This document shows, piece by piece, positions 31,824 to 54,535 of a stretch of DNA of 64,000 nt. Position numbers and translations under genes: made by a program. The notes under the pieces were generated by a model. The model was not told the origin of the DNA. It worked only from the letters and a program-made list of their open reading frames with translations, and searched no databases. Within the stretch, counting starts at the first letter, position 1, and every line of letters starts with the position of its first letter. Source of the stretch: Siphonodentalium dalli (Eukaryota; Mollusca; Scaphopoda; Gadilida; Siphonodentaliidae); NCBI GenBank assembly GCA_032622095.1, contig CP136065.1, forward strand, positions 42,631,503 to 42,695,502, written 5' to 3'.

Positions 31824-32091
31824 ATGCTGATGCAATTATTCACAGTAGCAAGCTTTATCTTGCTGGTTGGCGGATACGGCCATGACCACCGACCAAAGTA
31901 CAACACGAGCTCGAATACAACCTCGACCGACAGTGCGTCGATTAAAATGACATCAACGGAAAACTCAACCACTCACACCTCAACGACCGACCAGACACCA
32001 CGGGCACAGGCTACCTCACAACGTCACATCATCGTAGAACACGGGGATTTCACGGCCTATCTCGTCGAGTCGGAGTATATGGAACAACCAG
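31824..32091 (+). CDS. TSP1-repeat protein, exon 1: signal peptide and Thr/Ser-rich segment
   Basis: The ATG opens a 17-19-residue hydrophobic signal peptide (MLMQLFTVASFILLVGGYG), so the protein should enter the secretory pathway. About 50 residues rich in Thr, Ser and Asn follow (residues 28-67, including NTTSTDSASIKMTSTENSTT with NTT, NST-type glycosylation sites), like a short mucin stalk. The exon then reads HIIVEHGDFTAYLVESEYME and ends QP+G at CCAG/GTAACT, phase 1. Every TSP1 exon downstream begins and ends in phase 1, which is why I join this exon to them. The next one is 5 kb away at 37103. The N-terminal region matches no family I recognise. Transcript evidence would be needed to prove the join. 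Confidence 0.72.
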
Positions 32092-37102: not shown

Positions 37103-37270
37103 TTAACGGCAAATGGTCTTACTGGGAAGAATCAGAGTGTCTGGTGACCTGTGGACATGGTTACCTTGTGCGCACTCGGACCTGCACCAACCCACCACCA
37201 TATAACGGCGGAGAACAGTGCAACGGAAAATCGATGCAGATGGCGATTTGTCGGAATCCAGACTGTCCAG
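37103..37270 (+). CDS. TSP1 domain exon 1
   Basis: This 168-nt exon lies between TATTATGCAG and CCAG/GTGAGT and is phase 1 at both ends. It encodes one complete thrombospondin type-1 repeat: NGKWSYWEESECLVTCGHGY, then RTRTC, PPPYNGGEQC and two C-terminal Cys (MAICRNPDCP). The six Cys, the W-x-x-W pair (first Trp at residue 5), the TCG motif and the RxRxC strand are all present, so the fold should be intact. TSP1 repeats are extracellular modules that bind glycosaminoglycans and proteins and can carry C-mannose on Trp. Because the exon is symmetric it can be skipped or duplicated without frame change. The donor here is the strongest in the cluster. Confidence 0.87.
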
Positions 37271-40362: not shown

Positions 40363-40530
40363 TTGACGGAGTTTGGACTGGTTGGAATGATGGATGCTGT
40401 AGTTCTACATGTGGCTTAGGGAAGCAGCGGCGGACCAGATCGTGTACACAACCGGCACCGGCATTCGGCGGGAAAGATTGCCCATACTCAGATACAGATG
40501 TGGCGCTCTGCGAACAGTCATCGTGTCCAG
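40363..40530 (+). CDS. TSP1 domain exon A1
   Basis: This is a 168-nt phase 1-1 exon (acceptor TAATTTATAG, donor CCAG/GTACCG). It encodes VDGVWTGWNDGCCSSTCGLG, KQRRTRSCTQPAPAFGG and DVALCEQSSCP+G. All TSP1 landmarks are present: WxxW, STCG, RxRxC-like RRTRSC, six Cys. There is one extra Cys (DGCCSS, where A2 and A3 have EGGCSS), which might pair abnormally. The donor GTACCG is weaker than GTRAGT. Immediately downstream, the last codons (GAACAGTCATC...TGTCCAG) and the donor repeat at 40554, the start of the minisatellite. A1 differs from A2/A3 at about eight residues, so it is the older relative. Confidence 0.87.
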
Positions 40531-40940
40531 GTACCGAACCTAAACACCACATCGAACAGTCATCATGTCCAGGTACCGAACCTAAACACCACACCCAAAC
40601 ATCGGCGGTCATCATGTCCAGGTACCGCACCTACACACCCACACCCAAACCTCTCCGGTCATCCATGTCCAGGTACCGCACATACCCACCCACACCCAAA
40701 CCTCTCCGGTCATCCATGTCCAGGTACCACACCTATACCCATTCACACCCAAATATATCCATCATCATGTCCAGGTAACGCACCTATACCCATCCACACC
40801 CAACACTCTCGGGTCATCAAGTCCAAGTACCGCACCTATACCCATCAACACCCAACCCTCTCCGGTAGTCATGTCCAGGTACCGCGCATATATCCATCCA
40901 CACTAAATCTCTCCGACCGACAGATTCACCTTGTGTGACC
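40512..40940 (+). repeat. donor-bearing minisatellite after exon A1
   Basis: About eight degenerate units of 42-60 bp repeat TCATCATGTCCAGGTACCG followed by CACC and CACACCCAAACCTCTCCGG. The first two copies duplicate the exon end itself (GAACAGTCATC at 40512 and 40554, 42 bp apart). The plus strand stays open for 146 codons. Confidence 0.93.
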
Positions 40941-41483
40941 ATATCGTCCGCATCGCTGTCTAAATGTTCTATGATATATGAAGAATAAATCGAGGATGGA
41001 TATGAATGCATATTAATTATTTAATTTTCACAGTACTTTTAATATAGGCTCACGGCAAATATATGATCGTCATAGGATAAATACACTTTCAGTCATAAAA
41101 TAGGCTCCACAACGTGAGTGCGACTTATGCATGTCCACTTCCCGTTTAAAAGCTATGGTTCCCTGATTCCACTGACGTAGTTCAAGTTCATGCTGAACAG
41201 AGTGGACGTTAAATGCATCAAAATACAAGGCCCCAATCACACAACTGGCCCGTGTATATGTACATGTGATTCTACTTAAACTATTCTTTAGCCAGGACAA
41301 TGATAATTCCTTTTGGGCAACACTCTGTTAGATGCCGGTATTCTTTCTGTTATGTGCGAGTAAGCTCTTCATATAATACCGATTATTAATTTAGACCGGT
41401 TGTTGTTCTTTTGTTTGATATCAATGACTATTAGCCTCAGCGCTTTAGATTCTCATGTTCGTGCACAATATATCAAATTCCAG

Positions 41484-41651
41484 TTGACGGTTCGTGGTCG
41501 GAATGGACCATTAGTGAATGTATTGCTAGTTGCGGACAGGGCATCCGGATTCGGATTAGAACATGCAGCAGTCCCGCACCAAACCACGGAGGGAGCTATT
41601 GCAAGGGCAACCAGACCGAGTTAGTCAATTGTTTGAATACTCCGTGTCCAG
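41484..41651 (+). CDS. TSP1 domain exon B1
   Basis: This 168-nt phase 1-1 exon (acceptor TCAAATTCCAG, donor CCAG/GTAATG) encodes VDGSWSEWTISECIASCGQG, IRIRIRTCSSPAPNHGGSYC and ELVNCLNTPCP+G. WSEW, ASCGQG, RIRTC, NHGG and six Cys make a full TSP1 repeat, with an N-glycosylation site (GNQT). It differs from type A in most loop residues, so A and B are older paralogues. The translation from the ORF starting at 41400 is out of frame with this exon and is not used. Confidence 0.87.
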
Positions 41652-41971
41652 GTAATGTATAAACGATTGACCCAACATAAATCACTAAAATGGCTAAAAA
41701 TGCCCGATCCGATTTGACACAACATTTTACAAATGTCCGAAAACAATTTTCCCATTTCTACGCAAAAGAAAACTGAAGAAAAAACCTTAAATTATTATCA
41801 TTCATGTAGAACAGGCATACCAACTGTTCACAAATTACCATTAAGGCATAGCTAGGCCTACGCAGAAAGAGATGCTCTGTATTATTTAAAACTTTTGTCA
41901 GGTTGAAAAAAATATTAAGATAGGTTAAAACATCCTGTTTCGAAAGTTTATGTATGACAATCAGAATATCG

Positions 41972-42608
41972 TATTACTGGTCTCATTGCTTCGATCAAAT
42001 ATAAATATCATATTAATGGGGTGATTGCTTCGATCAAATATAAATATCATATTAATGGGGTGATTGCTTCGATAAAATGTAAATATCATATTAATGGGGT
42101 GATTGCTTCGATAAAATGTAAATATCATATTAATGGGGTGATTGCTTCGATCAAATGTAAATATCATATTAATGGGGTGATTTCTTCGATCAAATATAAA
42201 TATCATATTAATGGGGTGATTGCTTCGATCAAATATAAATATCATATTAATGGGGTGATTGCTTCGATCAAATGTAAATATCATATTAATGGGGTGATTG
42301 CTCGATAAAATATAAATATCATATCAATGGGCTGATTGCTTCGATCCTAATGTAAATATATTAATGGGTTCATTGCTTCGATCAAATGTAAATATCGTAT
42401 TAATGGGCTGATTGCTTCGATCAAATATAAATATATTAATGGGGTGATTGCTTCGACCAAATATAAATATCATATCAATGGGCTGATTGCTTCGATCCTA
42501 ATGTAAATATATTAATGGGTTCATTGCTTCGATCAAATGTAAATATCTTATTAATGGGCTGATTGCTTCGACCAAATGTAAATATCATATTAATGAGCTC
42601 ATTGCTTG
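41972..42608 (+). repeat. 39-bp minisatellite before exon A2
   Basis: ATTGCTTCGATCAAATATAA plus ATATCATATTAATGGGGTG repeats about 16 times, with later units slightly shorter. It runs to within 12 bp of the exon A2 acceptor, so the acceptor's upstream region is repeat-derived. ORFs across it on both strands are by-products. Confidence 0.95.
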
Positions 42609-42619
42609 TTATTTTATAG

Positions 42620-42787
42620 TGGACGGAGTTTGGACTGGATGGAATGAAGGAGGCTGTAGTTCTACATGTGGCTTAGGGAAGCAGCGACGGAGCAGATCGT
42701 GTACACAACCGGCACCGGCATACGGCGGGAAAGATTGCCCAGACTCAGATACAGAAATGGCGCTCTGTGAACATTCATCATGTCCAG
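42620..42787 (+). CDS. TSP1 domain exon A2
   Basis: This 168-nt phase 1-1 exon (acceptor TTATTTTATAG, donor CCAG/GTACCG) encodes VDGVWTGWNEGGCSSTCGLG, KQRRSRSCTQPAPAYGG and EMALCEHSSCP+G, a complete six-Cys TSP1 repeat. The frame does not stop at the donor. It runs on through the minisatellite to a TGA at 44695-44697, giving a 692-codon ORF. If the donor is used, the next exon is B2 at 45243. If not, the domain would gain a long Pro/His/Ser tail. I favour normal splicing, but retention or use of later donors is possible. Confidence 0.87.
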
Positions 42788-44697
42788 GTACCGAACCTAC
42801 ACACCACACCAAACCTATACGGTCATCATGTACAAGAACAGCACCTACTCATCCACACCCAAACCTCTCCGGTCATCATATCCAGGTATCACACCTATAC
42901 CCATCCACTCCCATATCACTCCGGTCATCTTGTCCAGGTACTGCACCTACCGACCCACACCCAAACCTATCCGGTCATCATATCCAGGTATCACACCTAT
43001 ACCCATCCACTCCCATATCACTCCGGTCATCTTGTCCAGGTACTGCACCTACCGACCCACACCCAAACCTATCCGGTCATCATATCCAGGTATCACACCT
43101 ATACCCATCCACTCCCATATCACTCCGGTCATCTTGTCCAGGTACTGCACCTACCGACCCACACCCAAACCTATCCGGTCATCATATCCAGGTATCACAC
43201 CTATACCCATCCACTCCCATATCACTCCGGTCATCTTGTCCAGGTACTGCACCTACCGACCCACACCCAAACCTATCCGGTCATCATATCCAGGTATCAC
43301 ACCTATACCCATCCACTCCCATATCACTCCGGTCATCTTGTCCAGGTACTGCACCTACCGACCCACACCCAAACCTATCCGGTCATCATATCCAGGTATC
43401 ACACCTATACCCATCCACTCCCATATCACTCCGGTCATCTTGTCCAGGTACTGCACCTACCGACCCACACCCAAACCTATCCGGTCATCATATCCAGGTA
43501 TCACACCTATACCCATCCACTCCCATATCACTCCGGTCATCTTGTCCAGGTACTGCACCTACCGACCCACACCCAAACCTATCCGGTCATCATATCCAGG
43601 TATCACACCTATACCCATCCACTCCCATATCACTCCGGTCATCTTGTCCAGGTACTGCACCTACCGACCCACACCCAAACCTCTCCGGTCATCATGTCAA
43701 GGTACCTCATCCATACCCGTCCACAATCAAACCGCTTCGGTCATCGTGTCCAGGTAACGCACCTATACCATACACACCAAAACATCTCCGGTCATCATAT
43801 CTAGGTACCACACCTACTCATCCACACCCAAACCTCTCCGGCACCTATACCCATCCACACCCAAACCTCTCCGGTCATCATATCCAGGTATCATACCTAT
43901 ACCCATCCACTCCCATATCACTCCGGTCATCTTGTCCAGGTACTGCAACTACCGACCCACATCCAAACCTCTCCGGTCATCATGTCAAGGTACCTCATCC
44001 ATACCCGTCCACAATCAAACCGCTTCGGTCATCGTATCCAGGTAACGCACCTATACCATACACACCAAAACATCTCCGGTCATCATATCTAGGTACCACA
44101 CCTACTCATCCACACCCAAACCTCTCCGGCACCTATACCCATCCACACCCAAACCTCTCCGGTCATCATATCCAGGTATCATACCTATACCCATCCACTC
44201 CCATATCACTCCGGTCATCTTGTCCAGGTACTGCAACTACCGACCCACATCCAAACCTCTCCGGTCATCATGTCAAGGTACCTCATCCATACCCGTCCAC
44301 AATCAAACCGCTTCGGTCATCGTGTCCAGGTAACGCACCTATACCATACACACCAAAACATCTCCGGTCATCATATCTAGGTACCACACCTACTCATCCA
44401 CACCCAAACCTCTCCGGTCATCCATGTCCAGGTACCGCACATACCCACCCACACCCAAACCTCTCCGGTCATCCATGTCCAGGTACCACACCTATACCCA
44501 TTCACACCCAAATATATCCATCATCATGTCCAGGTAACGCACCTATACCCATCCACACCCAACACTCTCGGGTCATCAAGTCCAAGTACCGCACCTATAC
44601 CCATCAACACCCAACCCTCTCCGGTAGTCATGTCCAGGTACCGCGCATATATCCATCCACACTAAATCTCTCCGACCGACAGATTCACCTTGTGTGA
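42769..44697 (+). repeat. 102-bp (50+52) donor-bearing minisatellite after exon A2
   Basis: Dimers of a 50-52-bp monomer repeat about eight times from 42881 (TCCAGGTATC at 42881, 42983 and so on). Variant and shorter units then follow to about 44690. Each monomer contains (A/T)(T/G)(A)TCCAGGTA(C/T), a copy of the exon-end and donor. All three plus frames are open for 300 codons or more because 102 is a multiple of three and the unit has no stop words. Confidence 0.96.
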
Positions 44698-45242
44698 CCA
44701 TATCGTCCGCATCGCTGTCTAAATGTTCTATGATATATGAAGAATAAATCGAGGATGGATATGAATGCATATTAATTATTTAATTTTCACAGTACTTTTA
44801 ATATAGGCTCACGGCAAATATATGATCGTCATAGGATAAATACACTTTCAGTCATAAAATAGGCTCCACAACGTGAGTGCGACTTATGCATGTCCACTTC
44901 CCGTTTAAAAGCTATGGTTCCCTGATTCCACTGACGTAGTTCAAGTTCATGCTGAACAGAGTGGACGTTAAATGCATCAAAATACAAGGCCCCAATCACA
45001 CAACTGGCCCGTGTATATGTACATGTGATTCTACTTAAACTATTCTTTAGCCAGGACAATGATAATTCCTTTTGGGCAACACTCTGTTAGATGCCGGTAT
45101 TCTTTCTGTTATGTGCGAGTAAGCTCTTCATATAATACCGATTATTAATTTAGACCGGTTGTTGTTCTTTTGTTTGATATCAATGACTATTAGCCTCAGC
45201 GCTTTAGATTCTCATGTTCGTGCACAATATATCAAATTCCAG

Positions 45243-45410
45243 TTGACGGTTCGTGGTCGGAATGGACCATTAGTGAATGTATTGCTAGTTGCGGACAGGG
45301 CATCCGGATTCGGATTAGAACATGCAGCAGTCCCGCACCAAACCACGGAGGGAGCTATTGCAAGGGCAACCAGACCGAGTTAGTCAATTGTTTGAATACT
45401 CCGTGTCCAG
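45243..45410 (+). CDS. TSP1 domain exon B2
   Basis: Duplicate of exon B1, 3,759 bp downstream, identical in the translated product. It has the same acceptor (TCAAATTCCAG), donor (CCAG/GTAATG), 168-nt length and phase 1-1 borders. It encodes one complete TSP1 repeat (WSEW, CGQG, six Cys). Confidence 0.86.
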
Positions 45411-45730
45411 GTAATGTATAAACGATTGACCCAACATAAATCACTAAAATGGCTAAAAATGCCCGATCCGATTTGACACAACATTTTACAAATGTCCGAA
45501 AACAATTTTCCCATTTCTACGCAAAAGAAAACTGAAGAAAAAACCTTAAATTATTATCATTCATGTAGAACAGGCATACCAACTGTTCACAAATTACCAT
45601 TAAGGCATAGCTAGGCCTACGCAGAAAGAGATGCTCTGTATTATTTAAAACTTTTGTCAGGTTGAAAAAAATATTAAGATAGGTTAAAACATCCTGTTTC
45701 GAAAGTTTATGTATGACAATCAGAATATCG

Positions 45731-46367
45731 TATTACTGGTCTCATTGCTTCGATCAAATATAAATATCATATTAATGGGGTGATTGCTTCGATCAAATAT
45801 AAATATCATATTAATGGGGTGATTGCTTCGATAAAATGTAAATATCATATTAATGGGGTGATTGCTTCGATAAAATGTAAATATCATATTAATGGGGTGA
45901 TTGCTTCGATCAAATGTAAATATCATATTAATGGGGTGATTTCTTCGATCAAATATAAATATCATATTAATGGGGTGATTGCTTCGATCAAATATAAATA
46001 TCATATTAATGGGGTGATTGCTTCGATCAAATGTAAATATCATATTAATGGGGTGATTGCTCGATAAAATATAAATATCATATCAATGGGCTGATTGCTT
46101 CGATCCTAATGTAAATATATTAATGGGTTCATTGCTTCGATCAAATGTAAATATCGTATTAATGGGCTGATTGCTTCGATCAAATATAAATATATTAATG
46201 GGGTGATTGCTTCGACCAAATATAAATATCATATCAATGGGCTGATTGCTTCGATCCTAATGTAAATATATTAATGGGTTCATTGCTTCGATCAAATGTA
46301 AATATCTTATTAATGGGCTGATTGCTTCGACCAAATGTAAATATCATATTAATGAGCTCATTGCTTG
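45731..46367 (+). repeat. 39-bp minisatellite before exon A3
   Basis: Duplicate of 41972-42608 with the same unit order. Confidence 0.95.
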
Positions 46368-46378
46368 TTATTTTATAG

Positions 46379-46546
46379 TGGACGGAGTTTGGACTGGATG
46401 GAATGAAGGAGGCTGTAGTTCTACATGTGGCTTAGGGAAGCAGCGACGGAGCAGATCGTGTACACAACCGGCACCGGCATACGGCGGGAAAGATTGCCCA
46501 GACTCAGATACAGAAATGGCGCTCTGTGAACATTCATCATGTCCAG
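46379..46546 (+). CDS. TSP1 domain exon A3
   Basis: Duplicate of exon A2, identical in the 56 encoded residues, with the same splice sites and phases. The open frame continues through the following minisatellite for a total of 815 codons to 48825. No intact TSP1 exon was found after it in this window, so how the transcript ends is unknown. Candidates are readthrough into the repeat, or splicing to the doubtful exon at 50240 or beyond. Confidence 0.86.
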
Positions 46547-49120
46547 GTACCGAACCTACACACCACACCAAACCTATACGGTCATCATGTACAAGAACAG
46601 CACCTACTCATCCACACCCAAACCTCTCCGGTCATCATATCCAGGTATCACACCTATACCCATCCACTCCCATATCACTCCGGTCATCTTGTCCAGGTAC
46701 TGCACCTACCGACCCACACCCAAACCTATCCGGTCATCATATCCAGGTATCACACCTATACCCATCCACTCCCATATCACTCCGGTCATCTTGTCCAGGT
46801 ACTGCACCTACCGACCCACACCCAAACCTATCCGGTCATCATATCCAGGTATCACACCTATACCCATCCACTCCCATATCACTCCGGTCATCTTGTCCAG
46901 GTACTGCACCTACCGACCCACACCCAAACCTATCCGGTCATCATATCCAGGTATCACACCTATACCCATCCACTCCCATATCACTCCGGTCATCTTGTCC
47001 AGGTACTGCACCTACCGACCCACACCCAAACCTATCCGGTCATCATATCCAGGTATCACACCTATACCCATCCACTCCCATATCACTCCGGTCATCTTGT
47101 CCAGGTACTGCACCTACCGACCCACACCCAAACCTATCCGGTCATCATATCCAGGTATCACACCTATACCCATCCACTCCCATATCACTCCGGTCATCTT
47201 GTCCAGGTACTGCACCTACCGACCCACACCCAAACCTATCCGGTCATCATATCCAGGTATCACACCTATACCCATCCACTCCCATATCACTCCGGTCATC
47301 TTGTCCAGGTACTGCACCTACCGACCCACACCCAAACCTATCCGGTCATCATATCCAGGTATCACACCTATACCCATCCACTCCCATATCACTCCGGTCA
47401 TCTTGTCCAGGTACTGCACCTACCGACCCACACCCAAACCTCTCCGGTCATCATGTCAAGGTACCTCATCCATACCCGTCCACAATCAAACCGCTTCGGT
47501 CATCGTGTCCAGGTAACGCACCTATACCATACACACCAAAACATCTCCGGTCATCATATCTAGGTACCACACCTACTCATCCACACCCAAACCTCTCCGG
47601 CACCTATACCCATCCACACCCAAACCTCTCCGGTCATCATATCCAGGTATCATACCTATACCCATCCACTCCCATATCACTCCGGTCATCTTGTCCAGGT
47701 ACTGCAACTACCGACCCACATCCAAACCTCTCCGGTCATCATGTCAAGGTACCTCATCCATACCCGTCCACAATCAAACCGCTTCGGTCATCGTATCCAG
47801 GTAACGCACCTATACCATACACACCAAAACATCTCCGGTCATCATATCTAGGTACCACACCTACTCATCCACACCCAAACCTCTCCGGCACCTATACCCA
47901 TCCACACCCAAACCTCTCCGGTCATCATATCCAGGTATCATACCTATACCCATCCACTCCCATATCACTCCGGTCATCTTGTCCAGGTACTGCAACTACC
48001 GACCCACATCCAAACCTCTCCGGTCATCATGTCAAGGTACCTCATCCATACCCGTCCACAATCAAACCGCTTCGGTCATCGTGTCCAGGTAACGCACCTA
48101 TACCATACACACCAAAACATCTCCGGTCATCATATCTAGGTACCACACCTACTCATCCACACCCAAACCTCTCCGGCACATATACCCATCCACACCCAAA
48201 CCTATCCGGTCATCATATCCAGGTATCACACCTATACCCATCCACTCCCATATCACTCCGGTCATCTTGTCCAGGTACTGCACCTACCGACCCACACCCA
48301 AACCTCTCCGGTCATCATATCCAGGTATCACACCTATACCCATCCACTCCCATATCACTCCGGTCATCTTGTCCAGGTACTGCACCTACCGACCCACATC
48401 CAAACCTCTCCGGTCATCATGTCAAGGTACCTCACCCATACCCGTCCACAATCAAACCGCTTCGGTCATCTTGTCCAGGTACTGCACCTACCGACCCACA
48501 TCCAAACCTCTCCGGTCATCATGTCAAGGTACCTCATCCATACCCGTCCACAATCAAACCGCTTCGGTCATCATGTCCAGGTAACGCACCTATACCATAC
48601 ACACCAAAACATCTCCGGTCATCATATCTAGGTACCACACCTACTCGTCCAAACCCAAACCTCTCCGGCACCTATACCCATCCACACCCAAACCTCTCCG
48701 GTGCCTATACCTATTCAAAACCAAACCTCTCCGGCCATCATGTTTCAGGTACCGCATATTATCATCCACACCCAAACCTCTACGGTCATCATGTCCAGGT
48801 ACCACACCTACTCGTCCACATCTAAACCTCTCCGGTCATCGTGTCCAGGTACCACGCCTATACCCATCCATACCCAAACAACTTCGGTCATCATGTCCAG
48901 GTACCGCACCTACTCGTCCACACCCAAACCTCTCCGGCACCTATACCCGTCCACACCAAACATCTCCGGCACATATACCTATTCACAACCAAACCTCTCC
49001 GGCCATCATGTCCAGGTACCGCACCTATACCCAGCCATGCCCAACCCTCTCCGGTCATCATGTCCAGGTACCGCACCTATACTCATCCACACCCAGTCCT
49101 CTTCGACCGACAGTATCGTC
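46528..49120 (+). repeat. donor-bearing minisatellite after exon A3, ~50 monomers
   Basis: It begins like the A2 array and extends about 950 bp past the duplicated segment, with 102-bp dimers, TCATCATGTCAAGGTACC variants and short CTCTCCGGCACCTATACC units. Donor-like CCAGGTA words recur throughout. Confidence 0.95.
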
Positions 49121-49134
49121 CGCCTCGCTGTCTA

Positions 49135-49426
49135 AATAGCAATGTTCTATGATATATGTAGAATACATCGCGGATGGATATGAATGCATATTAATTATTT
49201 AATTTCCACTGAACAGCAAATATAGCCTCACGGCAAATATATGACCTCCATAACATACATTTTAAATAAAGAAATAGGCTTCACAACGTCAGTGCGACTT
49301 TTACATGTTCACTTCCCATTTAAAAGCTATGTTTCCCTGATTCCACTGACGTAGTGCAAGTTCATGCTGAACAGAGTGAACAACCAAACCGAGATAGTCA
49401 ATTGCTTAAATACTCCGTATCCAGGT
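49135..49426 (+). pseudogene. decayed TSP1 B-type copy with internal deletion
   Basis: The sequence aligns with the intron before B1/B2 (TGAATGCATATTAATTATTT, CCACTGACGTAGT, CATGCTGAACAGAGTG). At 49379 it jumps straight into the last third of a B exon (AACCAAACCGAGATAGTCAA, encoding NQTEIVNCLNTPYPG). The acceptor and the first two thirds of the exon are gone, and the penultimate-type Cys codon TGT has become TAT. The donor CCAG/GTAATG remains. It is a third, broken member of the A-B-A-B-A-B series and cannot encode a TSP1 domain. Confidence 0.8.
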
Positions 49427-49602
49427 AATGTGTAAACGATTGACCCCAAATAAATCATTAAAATGGCTAAAAATGCCCTATCCGATTTGACACAAAATCT
49501 GATTATATGTTCTAAACCAATTTTCCGATTACTATTTAAAAGAAAACTGAAGAAAAAAAACCTTTAAATAAATTATTATCATTCATGTAGCACATCCACG
49601 TT

Positions 49603-49688
49603 CGCCCTGCACCAAAGGATGGAGGGAATTATTGTCATGGTGCCCAAAGTGAGATGGTCAAGTGGTGCTTGAATATTCCGTGTCCAAG
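49603..49688 (+). pseudogene. 3' half of another TSP1 exon
   Basis: In one frame it reads RPAPKDGGNYCHGAQSEM and VKWCLNIPCPSG, the C-terminal half of a B-like TSP1 repeat (PAPxxGGxYC, two final Cys). The 5' half and acceptor are absent, and the donor is changed from CCAG/GTA to CCAAGTGGA. It probably decayed after duplication. Confidence 0.72.
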
Positions 49689-50239: not shown

Positions 50240-50331
50240 TTGATCGTGCACTGCTTGAGTGGACACACTACATATCAACATTTGTTTTCATTGGGCTGGA
50301 ATATTTGCGACTGCTTTATACTTCATTATAA
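50240..50331 (+). CDS. doubtful terminal exon of TSP1 gene
   Basis: The acceptor TAATTTCCAG is followed in phase 1 by VDRALLEWTHYISTFVFIGL and EYLRLLYTSL, then a stop. The start (VDRALLEWT) recalls the VDGSWSEWT start of exon B, and the rest is hydrophobic, so it could be a short membrane-anchor exon or a decayed TSP1 5' half. A different frame over the same DNA (50259-50492) also encodes a hydrophobic stretch. Neither is proven. Confidence 0.22.
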
Positions 50332-53089: not shown

Positions 53090-53231
53090 ACGTCATTATA
53101 TTTGTCATCACCATCGTCAGCATCATCAACATCATCATCGTCGTTGTCGTCGTCGTAATCATCTCCATCATCATGATCATCATCGTCATCATCGTTATCA
53201 TCATCGTGATCGTAATCATCATCATCATCGT

Positions 53232-53262
<31 letters not shown>

Positions 53263-53455
53263 GTAATCATCATCATTATCATCCATCACCGTAATCATGA
53301 TCATCGTAATCATCATCATCTTCATCGTAATAATCATCATCGTAATCATCATCATCGTAATTATCTTCATCATCATCATCGTAATCATCATCATCGTAAT
53401 CATCATCATCATCATCGTAATTATCTTCATCATCATCATCATCATCATCGTAATC

Positions 53456-53494
<39 letters not shown>

Positions 53495-53660
53495 GTAATC
53501 ATCATCATCGTAATCATCATCATCATCGTAATTATCTTCATCATCGTAATCATCATCGTAATCATCATCATCGTTTTTCATCATCGTAATCATTATTATC
53601 GTCAACATGGGCATCGCCTTCATCATCATTGCCATCATCATCATAGTTATCTTCATCGTC
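53090..53660 (+). repeat. (ATC)n / (CATCAT CGT AAT) trinucleotide tract
   Basis: Nearly pure ATC-type trinucleotides interrupted by CGTAAT. The poly-Asp, poly-Met and poly-Ile ORFs here on both strands are artefacts of the repeat. Confidence 0.97.
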
Positions 53661-53779
53661 ATATCTCTCGTCCTACTTACCCATATAAAAATGTACCTGG
53701 GTAAATCCACCCAGGTTTTTTGGGCCGAAACCCAGGTAAAAATATATCTACCAAGACATCCACCAACCATCAAGACCCC

Positions 53780-54535
53780 GCGAAACCTGGGTTTTACCAT
53801 GATTTACCCACCTGAAACTGGATAAAAACCCTGGTATGGGTAAACCTGGGTGTAATTACCCAGGTGACCACACCCAGGTGTACCCTACCTGGGTGTTTCC
53901 CACCCAGGTCTACCCTGGTGTTTCCTACCTGGGTGTTTCCCCACCCAGGTGTACCATGGTGTTATTTACCCAGGTGTACCCTGGTGTTTCCTACCTGGGT
54001 GTTTCCCATCCAGGTTACCTTGGTGTTATTCACCCAGGTGTACCCTGGTGTTTCCTACCTGGGTGTTTCCCACCCAGGTGTACCTTGGTGTTATTCACCC
54101 AGGTGTACCCTGGTGTTTCCTACCTGGGTGTTTCCCACCCAGGTGTACCTTGGTGTTATTCACCCAGGTGTACCCTGGTGTTTCCTACCTGGGTGTTCCC
54201 CACCCAGGTGTACCTTGATGTTTCCAACCCAGGTATACCTTGGTGTTTTTTTTTTACGCCGGTGTACCTTGGTGTTTTCTTACCCAGGTGGATTTCCCAT
54301 TGAGATGCACCTGGGTTAGAAAACCCCAAGGTACACCCAGGTAAGGAAACACCAAGGTACACCTGGGCAGGAAAACACCAAGGTACACCTGGGTAAGAAA
54401 ACACCAAGGTACACCTGGGTAAGAAAACACCAAGGTACACCTGGGTAAGAAAACACCAAGGTACACATGGGTAGGAAACACCAAGGAACACCTGGGTGAA
54501 TAACACCAAGGTACACCTGGGTGGGGATACCAAAG
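53780..54535. repeat. inverted ACCCAGGTGTACC minisatellite
   Basis: From about 53850 to 54290, units CACCCAGGTGTACC(C/T)TGG and GTGTTTCCTACCTGGGTG repeat with a 65-bp higher-order period (54071, 54136). From about 54310 to 54530 the array is in reverse orientation (CACCAAGGTACACCTGGGTA plus AGAAAA, ~33 bp). The centre of inversion is near 54300. The ~220-bp right arm can pair with the left arm. ORFs on both strands here are by-products. Confidence 0.95.

Follow-up and report, generated by a model that had tools for sequence, protein, structure and literature searches.

The 64,000-nucleotide stretch of DNA analysed here, called the window below, is C5:42631503-42695502 of the scaphopod Siphonodentalium dalli, whose genome of 2.23 Gb is assembled in nine contigs and contains at least 150 TSP1 matches. 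The window carries a gene spanning 31.8-50.3 kb, in which each TSP1 domain is encoded by its own symmetric phase 1-1 exon. The exons are arranged in the order C, A1, B1, A2, B2, A3, followed by two broken B pieces. After each type A exon, the end of the exon and its splice donor are repeated in tandem. The exons and arrays concerned are listed here by position in the window.

40363-40530, forward strand: TSP1 exon A1 (phase 1-1; Pfam TSP_1, E=3.4e-9), boundaries read from the sequence
40512-40595, forward strand: 42-bp duplication of the A1 end with its donor, 2 mismatches
40531-40915, forward strand: donor-side minisatellite after A1, unit of 49-53 bp
40639-44417, forward strand: first copy of a tandem duplication (unit 3,759 bp), exact match
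41484-41651, forward strand: TSP1 exon B1 (Pfam TSP_1, E=4.4e-12), donor without array
41965-42607, forward strand: acceptor-side minisatellite before A2, 16.7 copies of a 39-bp unit, separated from the exon by 12 nt
42620-42787, forward strand: TSP1 exon A2 (tblastn and boundary reading)
42788-44674, forward strand: donor-side minisatellite after A2, which passes from 102-bp dimers through 288-bp higher-order units to an A1-type tail
44398-48176, forward strand: second copy of the tandem duplication, 3,779 bp without mismatch, with the junction inside an array
45243-45410, forward strand: TSP1 exon B2, identical to B1
45724-46366, forward strand: acceptor-side 39-bp array before A3, a copy of 41965-42607
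46379-46546, forward strand: TSP1 exon A3, identical to A2
46547-49106, forward strand: donor-side minisatellite after A3, with the TSP1 frame open for 759 codons beyond the exon

The last exonic bases of A1, A2 and A3 are 40530, 42787 and 46546, and the donor is CCAG/GTACCG in each case (the slash marks the exon-intron border). Reading of the arrays confirmed the statement of a preliminary description that exon end and donor are tandemly repeated after all three exons. The 42-bp duplication at the A1 end (40512-40553 and 40554-40595) and the 102-bp dimer of 52+50 bp after A2 and A3 were both present. The Tandem Repeats Finder scores of the three donor-side arrays range from 430 to 2,603, far above chance within the window. 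In anatomy, the arrays resemble the donor-bearing minisatellites of IFI6 and ABCA7: they are tandem repeats that start from the 3' border of an exon and carry a donor in the unit. The CTTGTCCAG donors occur once per 102 bp and are in phase 1, and the ATATCCAG donors are in phase 0, as had been described. The claim that every monomer keeps a donor was too strong. Among internal units covering at least 75% of the unit, AG/GT is present in 6/7 after A1, 33/37 after A2 and 44/49 after A3, and there are truncated units of 33-39 bp without a donor.

Outside the window, the pattern recurs in a gene family whose members lie on several contigs. The claim that the repeat was built from the 3' end and donor of the exon itself is right, and these paralogues strengthen it. 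A search of the genome DNA with the repeat gave matches on contigs C1, C2, C5 and C8, and an exon search gave at least about 72 good A-type exon matches (E at most 1.6e-18). Forty A exons were read. Of these, 28 have long flanks and come from loci fetched via array matches, so that they are biased by the array search, including the four array-free exons in loci L042 and L043. The other 12 are short slices picked from the exon list with their introns unseen beforehand, and are a fair sample. A duplicate was counted when it lay within 200 nt of the donor and had at most 8/24 mismatches and a shuffle p of at most 0.01. Donor-spanning duplicates were found at 28/40 A exons and 2/5 C exons, and at none of 34 B exons and none of 23 other TSP1 exons. 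When near-identical rows were grouped, duplicates were present in 19/29 A, 0/14 B and 1/3 C. In the fair sample, 4 of the 12 slices (L067, L072, L075 and L076), or 3/11 groups, had a duplicate. The B set omits 3/37 rows in which the expected GT is absent, and the control set omits 5/28 loci (three without GT at the homologous codon and two not entered). Two controls have other repeats: the L006 array begins 51 nt past the donor and L063 is a whole-exon tandem, and neither counts as donor-spanning within 200 nt. The A exons look functional, as the median ratio of nonsynonymous to synonymous substitution rates (dN/dS) is 0.29 (205 pairs, 21 distinct exons), which indicates purifying selection. 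Rows L034:4496 and L029:4677 were omitted from this calculation; the B value is undefined and the C value depends on 6 pairs, and neither was used.

Other arrangements were seen at related loci. The type C exons L044:616 and L045:961 have a repeat of 63 bp x 2.1 that starts 6 nt before the exon end, and the type B exons L044:7379 and L045:5643 have one of 44 bp x 2.7-3.7 that starts 31-37 nt past the exon end. L040 (C8:96.47 Mb) and L041 (C5:104.57 Mb) contain a few array units and no TSP1 exon detected by tblastn; the flank of L041 is common to TSP1 loci, and this locus may be a decayed or moved copy. L042 and L043 (C5:57.28 and 57.54 Mb) are near-identical array-free members, inverted and about 250 kb apart.

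The exon part that was copied and the spacing of the donors vary in the family. They are 14 and 49 nt in the main clade, 25 and 49 nt at the loci on contig C1, 20 and 42 nt in the nested A1 duplication, 12 and 75 nt in L067, and 9 and 56 nt in L075. We take these differences in unit boundaries between lineages to mean that arrays arose separately about five times at the donor border of A exons. A sixth birth, in L072 (4 and 62 nt), is doubtful. In a tree of 27 A-exon rows with B exons as outgroup, from which L034:4496 was omitted because of an insertion in the exon, the array-free L042 and L043 are placed between two array-bearing groups, that of C1 with units of 49/56 bp and one of 17 exons with units of 52 bp. 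Support is 97/95 for the 17-exon group and 85/99 for the fork that joins L042 and L043 to it. For the two large groups, a single birth followed by loss in L042 and L043 and by re-shaping of the unit is possible. L067 and L075, each with its own plain two-copy duplication, argue against a single birth.

The exon's own donor has been maintained. AG/GT is intact in 39/40 A exons, the exception being L070 (CAA/GT, no duplicate). In the main clade, AG/GT is present in 18/18 own donors versus 212/289 internal ones, and among distinct units in 14/14 versus 118/172 (p=0.007; p=0.006-0.010 under stricter identity filters). The distinct units of the C1 group gave 5/5 first versus 12/35 internal donors (p=0.009), a result driven by one array, L044:8304. 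This is an 83-bp downstream array of about 14.7 copies, which keeps AG/GT in 1/28 units by a rough alignment, the 83-bp unit fitting the 49-bp model badly; the alignment of L045:8244 overruns the end of its array. The unit of L044:8304 includes a longer piece of the exon end, and the donor is altered (GTGCATATACC) in the copies that were read. When all distinct units were pooled without this array, the values were 18/18 first and 128/180 internal donors (p=0.003). In L038:2519, 19/44 internal units have CCAT/GT, so the array persists despite lost donors. Column statistics were based on 15 representative arrays with 160 distinct internal units. The AG/GT columns changed at a rate of 0.076 compared with a mean of 0.121 and ranked 9/52 among four-column windows, and in these units the internal donors did not stand out as more conserved than the remainder of the unit.

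In the window, positions 40639-44417 match positions 44398-48176 base for base, with 0 mismatches in 3,779 bp at an offset of 3,759 bp. Because of this exact match, A2 and A3 are not independent cases. The duplicated unit holds a B-A exon block, and its ends, 40639 and 44397, fall in the A1 and A2 arrays. This is as expected of unequal crossing-over between arrays, and the event may be very recent. Recombination between arrays was also considered as a general route of exon duplication and was rejected, since duplication ends inside arrays are confined to the window and are not seen at L031 and L044.

We consider it probable, at roughly 0.7, that the arrays are intronic minisatellites that arose by tandem duplication across type A donors and that splicing uses mainly the first donor. 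A short stretch, comprising 9-25 nt of the exon end and about 22-63 nt of the intron, would have been duplicated in tandem, and slippage and unequal crossing-over might then have expanded and homogenised the repeat in some lineages. Such events would have occurred about five times within one multigene family, and in the window array-to-array recombination would then have copied the 3.76-kb B-A exon block. Splicing would rely chiefly on the first donor, that of the exon itself, and would remove the bulk of the array with the intron. The downstream AG/GT sites probably see some low-level, noisy use. How often the following exon is skipped may depend on array length, as it does in human ABCA7. 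The arrays look more like by-products that are mostly ignored by splicing than like a tuned switch.

Several observations weigh against this reading. Without L044:8304, the C1 group shows no significant decay of internal donors (4/4 versus 10/13, p=0.42), and three of its arrays keep all of them (9/9, 9/9 and 6/6). The GT columns alone have the 5th lowest change of 52 two-column windows. Scoring with a splice-site profile, which the preliminary description had proposed, was done with a native profile of 46 donors (19 B, 4 C and 23 other), and internal donors can exceed the exon's own: internal CAG/GTAACG and GTACTG score 6.4 and 5.4, compared with 4.25 for the exon's own GTACCG. Phase-1 sites make up 19/33 of the internal AG/GT sites after A2 and 23/44 after A3, and 19 and 22 of these, respectively, are stop-free and thus usable. 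Neutral slippage alone does not explain the bias of donor-spanning duplication towards A exons. Two of the three exon duplications examined, those of L031 and L044, have ends that start outside arrays. Part of an array or the 3,759-bp duplicate might also have been mis-assembled, which we regard as rather unlikely. A stretch of 3,779 bp without mismatch across two minisatellites is in keeping with such an artefact, but related arrays with different sequences occur at many separate loci, which limits the doubt to the A2/A3 duplicate.

The usable sites and the high scores of the GTACTG and GTAACG donors also bear on the suggestion that the array is a graded set of donors. Alternative phase-1 donors would then add Pro/His/Ser linkers in steps of 34 residues between TSP1 domains and would give peptides such as RSSCPGTAPTDPHPNLSGHHIQVSHLYPSTPISL. 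With 19/33 usable internal sites after A2 and 22/44 after A3, such insertion would be possible in this one gene, and in human IFI6 (6-16) two downstream minisatellite repeats are reportedly used as donors (PMC4526556). The paralogues are at odds with this suggestion. A usable internal donor is present in 10/28 A exons and absent from 18/28, four of which are array-free. Outside the window, 48/162 internal AG/GT sites are in phase 1, where about one third is expected by chance, and 13/162 are both in phase 1 and stop-free. The TSP1 frame past the exon is open for 9-759 codons among the 28 A exons, and C1-group arrays reach a stop after 9-12 codons in 5/6 exons. A mucin-like coding repeat, with its frame kept across homologues, was not found in the family. 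The open frame described earlier is indeed long after A2 (636, 338 and 322 codons in the forward frames), but all three frames are open there, so that openness is no sign of coding; past A1, the TSP1 frame hits a stop after 82 codons. The open frame was therefore rejected as a coding sign, all the more because the paralogues do not keep it. As a conserved function the graded-donor linker is not supported, since main-clade internal donors decay and the frame is not maintained outside the window, and we consider a linker generator improbable.

Splicing mainly at the first donor, which we prefer, may also be compared with a splice trap or exon-skipping dial, in which many weak donors or splice-factor motifs would compete with a strength set by copy number, so that fewer transcripts are spliced correctly or the following exon is skipped. 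As the TSP1 exons are symmetric (phase 1-1), skipping one would keep the frame. In ABCA7, skipping of exon 19 rises with the length of a variable number tandem repeat (VNTR), but low-level retention of one unit is constant across lengths (PMC5954066). The paralogues have anywhere between 0 and about 49 internal units, and nothing points to copy number being kept within bounds. This explanation appears unlikely.

Weakness of the A donor was tried as a cause and rejected, because the native-profile median of 4.25 lies within the control range (-0.65 to 9.53). A human donor profile gave the A donor 0.2 bits, a lower value than that of any of the 26 TSP1 controls scored with it.

Minisatellites also occur on the acceptor side of A exons. 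A 39/40-bp array ends 12-21 nt before the acceptor in 12/28 long-flank A exons (the window; L029-L032 and L035-L039), and no such array was found in 37 B and 4 C exons. The unit is similar to the sequence that precedes the acceptor of the A exon itself. The array at 41965-42607 contains 1 AG in 642 nt versus 38.5 expected, and nine such arrays together have 21 AG versus about 208 expected, with 163 GA. The ancestral unit may have lacked AG, so that scarcity of AG alone is not evidence of selection. On the donor side, each internal CCAG/GTA might act both as acceptor and as donor. Cassette exons of 102 bp, recursive exons of zero length or, through tandem duplication of AGGT, new introns could then result. 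At the 68 internal CAG/GTA sites of the window, the 17 nt from -20 to -4 hold a median of 12 pyrimidines, which compares with medians of 11, 9 and 10 for family acceptors of 20 A, 17 B and 3 C exons; by this count the internal sites look no less acceptor-like than genuine acceptors. Duplication of AGGT is an established model of intron gain (PMC3443670, PMC4974935). However, the repeats arose within an existing intron and no new intron is needed; the array-free L042 and L043 have the same exon border with the donor at the same place, and no new intron absent from relatives was found in the family. A bifunctional role of these sites is highly improbable. A broader reading would make A exons a recurrent, two-sided birthplace of splice-signal minisatellites, with the A2/A3 array now acting as a donor/acceptor ladder that adds linker steps of 34 residues. 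This is improbable; if true, exon borders would themselves be a source of repeats that later turn into new coding sequence.

The remaining features of the gene are as follows.

31824-32091, forward strand: candidate first coding exon (open reading frame with a signal-peptide-like start, Ser/Thr-rich, ending in CCAG/GTAACT in phase 1)
37103-37270, forward strand: TSP1 exon type C (tblastn), strong donor CAG/GTGAGT without array
49379-49424, forward strand: type B exon remnant, 3' end only (tblastn)
49591-49687, forward strand: second type B exon remnant (tblastn)
50240-50331, forward strand: candidate last exon, with an acceptor in phase 1, a run of hydrophobic residues and a stop

Neither the candidate first exon nor the candidate last exon had a Pfam match. 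It is plausible from their matching phase that they belong to the TSP1 gene. The two B remnants sit past the A3 array, and paralogues on contig C2 have similar remnants. Further downstream, at 53105-54522, a long array of TCA-type triplets gives way to arrays of 65 bp and 26 bp. Tandem repeats are abundant across the whole window (77 Tandem Repeats Finder rows).

Our data show that exon borders act as a birthplace of repeats. IFI6 and ABCA7 are single human cases which show that a minisatellite on a splice donor can alter splicing. Here, one genome provides a natural series of about 70 related exons, and the 40 A exons that were read have no duplicate, two copies, dozens of copies, or arrays at both splice borders. 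Two questions therefore become testable: how splice-site minisatellites start, and whether redundant donors harm the gene, are tolerated by it or are put to use. A literature search of titles and abstract openings found no report that donor-spanning minisatellites had been born repeatedly within a gene family. On the basis of that search, the repeated, A-exon-specific birth within one family, together with arrays at both borders, appears to be new.

Exons A1 and B1 belong to PF00090 (TSP_1), with 37.2 and 46.5 bits against a curated cut-off of 21.6. As in other multi-exon genes of this family, the domain is repeated, with one domain per symmetric phase 1-1 exon. The difference lies in the donor-spanning duplicates, which occur here at A exons and weakly at one near-identical C pair, and in 0/23 other TSP1 exons. 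The minisatellite of human IFI6 (6-16) reportedly supplies multiple splice donors, as Turri et al. are said to have described in 1995 (Nucleic Acids Research 23:1854). IFI6 is similar in having a minisatellite at an exon end that offers several donors. It differs in its short unit of 12 bp, in its restriction to one gene and in that use of its downstream donors has been reported. In human ABCA7, the intron 18 VNTR has a 25-bp unit that opens with the two bases of the exon 18 donor (PMC5954066, from 2018). This is likewise a tandem repeat directly at a donor, and according to the same paper the donor one unit downstream is used at a low level. ABCA7 is one gene with a 25-bp unit, and the passages on it mention no repeated origin in a gene family; the unit here also takes 9-25 nt of the exon. 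Introns can also be gained when segments containing AGGT are duplicated in tandem, which is an accepted route (Rogers model; PMC3443670, PMC4974935), and there too a duplicated AG/GT segment adds potential donors and acceptors. In the A exons, by contrast, the duplicated segment spans an exon-intron border that was already there, and an intron already present becomes longer.

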